From Prevotella sp. P6B1 (GTDB lineage Bacteria; Bacteroidota; Bacteroidia; Bacteroidales; Bacteroidaceae): a stretch of DNA of 64,000 nucleotides. Below the pieces are notes generated by a model. The model was not told the origin of the DNA. It did not search any database and worked only from the letters and a program-made list of their open reading frames with translations. Numbering within the stretch: position 1 is the first letter of the stretch; every line of letters begins with the position of its first letter. Shown here in pieces: positions 13,297 to 13,893 of this stretch. The position numbers and the translations under genes were made by a program. Location: assembly GCF_000702825.1 (NCBI RefSeq), contig NZ_JNKF01000012.1, positions 62,001 through 126,000 of the forward strand, read 5' to 3'.

Positions 13297-13329
13297 TTGG
13301 TCTTTCGACCAATGGGGGATGCTCCCCCA
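13297..13329 (+). other. Two adjacent strong hairpins after the HAD gene
   Basis: A 6-bp stem TTGGTC/GACCAA with loop TTTC (13297-13312) is directly followed by a 7-bp stem TGGGGGA/TCCCCCA with a 3-nt loop (13313-13329). A run of T precedes rather than follows them, so they are not standard intrinsic terminators, but they may still end the pgi-HAD transcript. They abut structured element copy A. Confidence 0.5.
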
Positions 13330-13547
13330 CGGTGTTGAGCGTTCAACCCAAAAACGTCCTGAGCTCAGAGGCCGGAACACAAATTCTTTAAATCACTCAA
13401 AGAACTCGCTGCGCTCAAACAGCTTTTCGTATTTCGTTGTTCAGATTGCATTCCGCAATCCGAAACTCAATGTTGATTCAAAGAATTTGCATTCCTCTAA
13501 AGACCTCTTCGTGCGGAATGTTTTTGTGTCTGAACACTCAACACCGT
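13329..13547 (+). repeat. Structured element, copy A
   Basis: No gene is seen here. The copy is bounded by an inverted pair P1 (13329-13345 with 13531-13547, 16 of 17 pairing). Inside, in order, are conserved block 1 (13351-13376), stem P2 (13380-13394 with 13475-13489, 14 of 15), conserved block 2 (13399-13428), hairpin P3 (13444-13460, GATTGC/GCAATC) and conserved block 3 (13504-13525). The same order occurs on the opposite strand in copy B. The blocks are nearly identical between copies, while P1, P2 and P3 differ in sequence but keep pairing. This suggests selection for a folded RNA or single-stranded DNA. The family is not recognised. Confidence 0.8.
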
Positions 13548-13653
13548 CCCCTACTCACTATTGCTGATGACCACCTTTCCCCATTCGTCCTCACAACTAC
13601 CGACTGCCATCAAAGGCATCTTAAGTGAAGCAAAGATAAAACAAATAAATTTT

Positions 13654-13893
13654 CAAGGGCTGTATCCCTAAGAAAACATTCCGCACGAGGAGGCATTTAT
13701 AGGATGTACTATTATCGGAATCGTCTTCGATTCTTGTGTCGCGTAAGCGAGACAAGCAAATCGACATGAGAAGCTGTTTGAGCGGAGCGAGTTCTTTGCA
13801 AGCAAAGCGGCAAAGCCGAGCGCATCGAATGATTACGATAATATTACATCCGGCCTCTGAGCTCAGGACGTTTTATTAGGGATATAGCCCTTG
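13654..13893 (-). repeat. Structured element, copy B (inverted)
   Basis: Read on the minus strand: P1 (13876-13893 with 13654-13671, 17 of 18 pairing), block 1 (13849-13874, identical to copy A over 26 bases), P2 (13836-13848 with 13705-13717, 12 of 13), block 2 (13768-13797, 28 of 30 identical), P3 (13733-13756, a 10-bp stem with one mismatch and loop of 4) and block 3 (13672-13693, 20 of 22 identical). Two extra small hairpins (including CGGC/GCCG at 13808-13818) lie between P2 and block 2. The spacer 13548-13653 between the copies shows nothing recognisable. The left end of the copy lies 19 bases from the DUF4230 stop. Confidence 0.8.

Follow-up and report, generated by a model that had tools for sequence, protein, structure and literature searches.

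What kind of element is kept as two inverted, structured copies side by side in a Prevotella genome? The locus lies in a window of 64,000 nt (the whole stretch of DNA analysed) from Prevotella sp. P6B1, and its initial annotation left two readings: a structured RNA family, or a non-autonomous mobile element recognised as folded DNA. The answer depends on which strand folds, on how the copies are distributed among related genomes, and on whether the sites they occupy are empty elsewhere.

The pair in the window and its folding strand

All parts of the two inverted copies were found where the initial annotation had placed them, at 13329-13547 and 13654-13893 (Table 1). The left blocks, 13351-13376 and 13849-13874, are complementary at 26 of 26 positions, and the middle block is 94% complementary between the copies over 31 nt. 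The inner part, in a correction to the scheme first drawn, is a three-way junction of P2, P3, and P4. Both copies are indeed structured: on the strand first chosen, each beats 200 of 200 dinucleotide shuffles, with z scores of -7.2 (copy 1) and -8.6 (copy 2) for the RNA fold and -5.8 and -6.9 for the DNA fold. The RNA fold of the opposite strand is stronger, at -96.4 versus -76.8 kcal/mol for copy 1 (z -9.9) and -103.8 versus -91.9 kcal/mol for copy 2 (z -8.7). Besides this pair, the P6B1 genome holds one 58-nt copy on another contig.

Copy 2 contains a 29-nt insertion that is missing from its MA2016 orthologue, where the core measures 173 nt rather than 202. The inserted sequence corresponds to a separate motif (GCGCTCGGCTTTGCCGC.., whose paired end varies), which is also inserted beside the P4 loop in L095 and L143; short matches to this motif are scattered through many genomes of the genus. 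Many short hits to the window sequence were rejected as family members, as their query positions mark most of them as this separate motif; among the neighbouring loci L010-L026, L023 alone has the P4 loop.

Table 1. Parts of the two elements, by position in the window; sense denotes the folding strand.
Feature	Position	Strand	Remark
Element copy 1, inner type A, with P1 stem	13329..13547	-	folding (sense) strand minus
Copy 1 P1 arm, 3' arm in sense	13329..13350	-	pairs with 13525-13547
Copy 1 P1 arm, 5' arm in sense	13525..13547	-	
Copy 1 conserved core block L	13351..13376	-	
Copy 1 conserved core block R	13504..13524	-	sense AAAACATTCCGCACGAAGAGG
Copy 1 P2 arm	13374..13395	-	
Copy 1 P2 arm	13474..13495	-	
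Copy 1 P3 hairpin region	13428..13471	-	
Copy 1 P4 loop	13403..13422	-	sense CTGTTTGAGCGCAGCGAGTT; common to distant Bacteroidota elements
Spacer between divergent sense 5' ends of the pair	13548..13653		
Element copy 2, inner type B, with P1 stem	13654..13893	+	folding (sense) strand plus
Copy 2 P1 5' arm	13654..13672	+	
Copy 2 P1 3' arm	13875..13893	+	
Copy 2 conserved core block R	13673..13693	+	
Copy 2 conserved core block L	13849..13874	+	
Copy 2 P2 5' arm	13702..13722	+	
Copy 2 P2 3' arm	13831..13851	+	
Copy 2 P3 hairpin	13727..13764	+	
Copy 2 P4 loop	13774..13793	+	CTGTTTGAGCGGAGCGAGTT
Copy 2 29-nt insertion	13796..13824	+	matches separate dispersed motif of genus; MA2016 orthologue without it

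The element is modular. At its centre is a conserved bulged core hairpin of 36-42 nt, in sense AAAACATTCCGCACGA..CGAGC..CAGGACGTTTT, enclosed by a variable P1 stem. The loop of this hairpin can hold a long three-way-junction module made of a long P2, a hairpin P3, and a hairpin P4 with a well conserved 20-nt loop. Read along the folding strand, the order is P1, AAAACATTCCGCACGARGAGG, the optional module, CCTCYGAGC..CAGGACGTTTT, and P1'.

Pairing is maintained through sequence change. The figures for an alignment of twenty diverse elements are uncorrected for relatedness and so are not probabilities, and the structure was partly derived from the same alignment: 92.9% of pair cells are paired versus 80.1% in shuffled alignments (0 of 500 reach it) and 36-47% in slid controls; both sides have changed in 27 of 56 pairs (again 0 of 500); and the covariation score is 0.359, versus 0.136 shuffled (0 of 500) and 0.04-0.09 slid. 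One of five covariation measures, the number of further pair types, is not above the shuffles (47 versus 48.6; 406 of 500 reach it). Two core pairs, read on the strand first chosen across 98 elements, illustrate the pattern. One is G-C in 47, A-T in 35, A/C in 3, G/T in 1, and C/T in 1, with 11 unread; the other reads A-T in 75 elements and G-C in 11, and 12 are unread.

The strand selected in the initial annotation was reversed by the family as a whole. Its complement folds better in 84 of 92 elements and, in alignment A1, contains 55 G.U cells versus 2 A.C cells, in 10 and 2 pair columns; correspondingly, P2 read on the strand first chosen has 122 A.C versus 10 G.T cells in 62 elements. The elements are related, so the cells behind these strand counts are not independent. 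In P1 the bias is weak (54 versus 32, p 0.02), and P1 pairing could thus come from template switching alone. With copy 1 folding on the minus strand and copy 2 on the plus strand, the two elements of the window point apart.

A dispersed family and its probable distant relatives

Both copies are members of a family of short DNA repeats, folded and mobile and so far without a name, in rumen Prevotella. Homologues extend well beyond the window, and their stems vary yet remain paired, the outcome that the initial annotation had named as support. Exact matching to a pattern of the right core block gave 56 places in 22 of the 398 genomes sampled from the genus, 1-5 in each positive genome; the reversed pattern gave no hit in the same 398 genomes. 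The pattern also occurs in 81 stretches of named genomes. Among the 80 matches listed, 76 are titled Prevotella, Xylanibacter, Prevotellaceae, Bacteroidaceae, or Bacteroidales, and many of these 76 come from ruminants; the other 4, from unrelated taxa, are without the left block and were taken as chance. Across 170 loci, the right block was found at 110 places, and at 98 of these the left block is present as well. These 98 full elements represent 92 different cores at about 32 loci, and their cores span 42-204 nt before P1 (72 at 170-174 nt, nine at 42 nt, and one at 58 nt). One partial copy, seen in the comparison of an addB-like gene, has a 36-nt core. Because some loci are common to several species and copies per genome are few, many copies may be ancient and have ceased to move.

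Searches of known families gave no name to these elements. Rfam has no family at gathering level for the window elements, with two chance-level snoRNA family hits below it, and none that overlaps the elements in six further loci. An origin in phages or plasmids was rejected, as neither window copy matches plasmid or phage records at E 0.01; one viral contig carries an element (L170). Among the openly licensed papers searched, no title or abstract describes the family.

P1 is strong in about half of the copies (45 distinct copies, averaging 20.0 Watson-Crick pairs). Own arms pair at a mean of -15.2 kcal/mol versus -6.8 kcal/mol for arms taken from different copies, and own-arm pairing lies beyond the 2.5% tail in 44 of 97, one L098 P1 being counted three times. 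Many other copies have, in place of P1, a common outer module on the sense 3' side.

Close pairing of copies is a recurrent arrangement. The 96 mapped positions include 17 close pairs within single records, separated by spacers of 53-172 nt, and all 17 have the same orientation, with right blocks facing and sense strands diverging. Inner types A and B are equally common (38 each), and 16 of the pairs are A/B and one is B/B. This bias probably arises because two identical inverted 170-nt copies would make a long, unstable palindrome prone to deletion by the cell. With respect to the terminal inverted repeats by which MITEs are recognised, an outer TTCATTT..TTTC module flanks some pairs on either side (L044, L142); one variant of this module is absent from the window's genome, and another precedes its 58-nt copy.

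Further modules accompany particular copies. A U-rich stretch and a terminal hairpin of similar plan (TTCTTTTnG..CnAAAAGAA) follow the fold on the sense 3' side in Prevotella and distant families, for example in elements without P1 (such as L152 and L079) and in L252 and L260-L264. A recurrent module, ATGGCGAACCC..GGGCAAAGGCT..AGCCAT, resembles, by eye, a small three-way junction and is found downstream of the L030, L041, L051, and L159 elements and beside the L123 element. In two B copies (L168 and L105), the outer part of block L is replaced by a CTTGCGTCCCTTCGGTAGCAAGCG.. module, seen in full in L168.

A covariance model found 3 genomes besides the window's own among 218 genomes of the order, with E-values that are rough after a short calibration; the exact P4 loop was found in 3 besides the window's own among 198 genomes of the phylum, alongside one hit in the reversed control. 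When up to 3 mismatches were allowed, 12 stretches with the loop were obtained from five genomes, and a sixth (G426) has a more diverged loop. In 9 of the 12 lowest-energy folds the loop sits on a P4-like stem, the stem letters being unlike except among the G540 copies, and 10 of the 12 stretches fold better in sense. The loop GUUUGAGCGNAGCGAGUU reappears, carried by different paired stems, in a few families of Bacteroidota, and these distant elements, which are without the Prevotella core, are probably related to the family. A Flavo-1 RNA (RF01705) at L252:1145-1236 lies about 265 nt from one distant P4-loop element, with no overlap.

Occupied sites, empty sites, and gene context

Elements can be present at sites that are empty in relatives, in one clear case together with P1. 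Of the two readings in the initial annotation, it is the non-autonomous, mobile element that these sites bear out, both after queF and in an addB-like gene. Eleven queF regions with elements were compared, and in 10 of them a copy directly follows queF; L030 has only the other copy. P1 in the queF copies is paired despite changes, and the inner type is A or B: L079 and L152 share the same upstream flank, yet the one has A and the other B. Simple inversion of the whole pair was not adopted as the cause, since an A/B swap with an unchanged upstream P1 arm would need two exchanges or conversion. Among the best 30 loci, nine queF loci are element-free, including that of the window's own genome, and these have only a short terminator-like hairpin ahead of the same next gene. 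QueF and the neighbouring queuosine precursor transporter score above NCBIfam cut-offs, and the gene after queF is pyruvate carboxylase subunit B-like, below the curated cut-off. At the start of the transporter gene, before queF, L152:4105-4148 gives a sub-threshold match to the PreQ1 riboswitch (31.5 bits; gathering 39).

In the addB-like gene, five sites (a-e) differ in occupancy among three species. At site a, one species has a 90-nt insertion, with which the P1 arms arrived, and the other two are empty. At site b two species share the same P1 around a core that is inverted between them, and the third is empty. Site c is filled in two species and empty in one; in L130, its core is broken by a module similar to CTTGCGTCCCTTCGGTAGCAAGCG... 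Of the two records that reach site d, one is filled and the other empty, the third ending before it. Site e holds a 42-nt core in one species and a 171-nt element in another, while the third species has no core there. A copy in an addA-like gene lengthens a variable linker, and orthologues are without the insertion. The in-frame copies (three species for the addB-like gene, one for the addA-like gene) leave the reading frames open. The gene products are AddB-like (PDDEXK nuclease) and AddA/RecB-like (UvrD helicase), below curated cut-offs. The loci concerned are L098:4405-7080, L130, L028:14895-17444, and L165, and the L098 sense frame reads about RKHSARGGTTSQDVFERK. Two more minimal copies lie in ORFs with DUF6371 matches.

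No target-site duplication is clear at the addB and queF junctions compared, and neither an excised form, a transposition event, nor an enzyme was seen. Insertion into the loops of existing hairpins was considered and rejected: two species have no palindrome at addB site a, and the empty queF sites hold an unrelated terminator.

Elements are commoner downstream of genes than between divergent genes, and they can sit in frame inside genes. Of the 98, 23 lie between convergent, 38 between codirectional, and 4 between divergent genes, 15 are at a contig edge, and 18 are inside an ORF of at least 120 aa, counts in which three identical 42-nt L098 copies were assigned the flanks of one of them. Eight of the 18 are in addA-, addB-, or DUF6371-type genes; the other 10 (ORFs of 123-218 aa) are likely in chance ORFs. 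A scan for one Bacteroidetes promoter motif placed it ahead of the sense strand in 2 of 89 elements, where shuffling gives 0.32, and downstream in 8 of 89. Both in the window and in the queF regions, the sense strand lies antisense to the gene before the element. A role as 3' UTR terminator is weakened, as the strand present in the mRNA of the upstream gene folds worse.

Interpretation and comparison with known systems

We consider it probable that the two copies form one inverted A/B heterodimer of a low-copy, non-autonomous, modular, REP/RPE-like mobile palindrome whose fold is recognised strand-specifically. A candidate host or trans-acting enzyme would recognise the core and the P4 loop on the folded sense strand, presented as single-stranded DNA or as RNA. 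Recognition of the fold would leave the stem letters free while pairing is kept, and template switching could refresh the arms and flip the core.

Two other explanations address the same pairing. The functional product might be a structured non-coding RNA or a cis-acting 3' UTR element, repeated through duplication of an RNA gene. Speaking for such a product are strong covariation with its G.U pairs on a single strand, conserved loops in a three-way junction, the P4 loop kept on other stems in distant families, and the excess of convergent over divergent sites (23 versus 4). We nevertheless hold it to be unlikely, given the scarcity of the promoter motif upstream (2 of 89, with 0.32 expected and 8 of 89 on the other side), a sense strand that, in the window as at queF, runs antisense to the gene before it, and copies in both orientations inside the addB-like gene. 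Support for an independent RNA gene is so far lacking: no Rfam family matches, and the promoter motif is seldom present ahead of the elements.

The other explanation, of ordinary quasi-palindromes whose pairing is kept mainly by replication template switching and not by selection on the fold, concerns the weight of compensatory change itself. The initial annotation took such change as the mark of selection on folding, an argument that does not suffice alone, since switching can create palindrome arms and homogenise them, as described in PMC8794818 and PMC8604942. The weak strand bias of P1 agrees with this process, and the core inverted within the same P1 at addB site b fits inversion of a spacer. 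Strand-symmetric switching does not, however, predict G.U over A.C (55 versus 2, and 122 versus 10 in P2), nor conserved loops and core amid free stems, and it does not explain filled versus empty sites. Switching could be strand-biased relative to replication or transcription, according to PMC8794818, but the elements occur in both orientations relative to genes. Template switching may therefore explain part of the covariation but hardly the strand bias, and it is this bias that argues for selection on the fold here. It is the chief caution when covariation is taken for selection. As a full account we regard switching as quite improbable: the core inversion in the addB-like gene fits it, and the strand bias does not.

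The mobile palindrome that we favour has several implications. It provides a clean bacterial case of covarying stems in mobile repeats, in which selection on the fold is separable from template switching through strand bias, filled and empty sites, and core inversions. It also carries a caution, since covariation tools can label such repeats RNA genes. In other phyla, REPs have intragenic copies in recombination-repair genes including recBCD, according to PMC3733652; the AddA- and AddB-like genes extend this unexplained habit of in-frame repeats to Bacteroidota, with a seemingly different palindrome. A broader proposal is tentative and, in our judgement, doubtful: a Bacteroidota-wide class of mobile folded nucleic acids may bear the loop GUUUGAGCGNAGCGAGUU on free but paired stems, spread via a strand-specific folded intermediate (single-stranded DNA or RNA) and a putative enzyme, and accumulate within the reading frames of the AddAB-like recombination nuclease, much as RecBCD and Uvr genes of other phyla collect REPs and RPEs.

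Among the known systems close to the family are the GTAG/CGTC REPs and their BIME/REPIN dimers, which, according to PMC3733652, likewise form inverted heterodimers, occupy convergent and unidirectional intergenic sites, and have copies in repair genes. A classical REP family moved by a RAYT (TnpA-REP) would account for these likenesses, possibly one of Bacteroidetes subclass 2.6, whose genes are flanked by atypical structures according to PMC6006769. We regard it as very improbable. The unpaired terminal GTAG or CGTC is absent by inspection: ends with P1 vary, the other type ends ..ATGAA, and the ACGTCC of block L sits in the core stem. Cores of 42-204 nt plus P1 exceed the 20-40 bp of REPs, and the stem letters are not conserved here. 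Nor was RAYT linkage found. A PF01797 (Y1) search covered 22 genomes that have the right core block and 22 that lack it, and gave no hit in the window's own genome. Of 33 Y1-transposase regions, some overlapping, none has a convincing copy nearby: 14 regions, chosen from a larger set of Y1 hits and scanned for the core blocks, the P4 loop, and one extra motif, gave two weak matches (block L with 6 mismatches, the extra motif with 4), and 19 Y1 loci from six distant genomes, several overlapping and scanned for the P4 loop only, gave three 4-mismatch matches, two of them one place; all were judged chance.

Integron attC sites have the core boxes RYYYAAC..GTTRRRY; the cores here end instead in AAAAC..GTTTT in 19 of 20 aligned elements. 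The covarying three-way junction is RNA-like and recalls the structured RNAs of Rfam, but no Rfam family matches the window elements at gathering level or overlaps those of the six further loci. Pneumococcal BOX elements are modular in their stem-loop make-up. Like the present elements, they are clustered repeats that insert into one another (PMC10969869); the organism is unrelated, and the likeness is one of described organisation. Rickettsia palindromic elements (RPEs) are palindromes of about 150 bp, many of them in frame inside genes, according to PMC10969869, and their intragenic copies are also found in repair genes, according to PMC3733652. They belong to a different phylum, and the Prevotella elements have a modular core with an optional three-way junction, strand-biased covariation, and A/B pairs; the two are likened by behaviour. 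The family is best read as a modular, strand-biased new addition to the REP/RPE kind of mobile palindrome.
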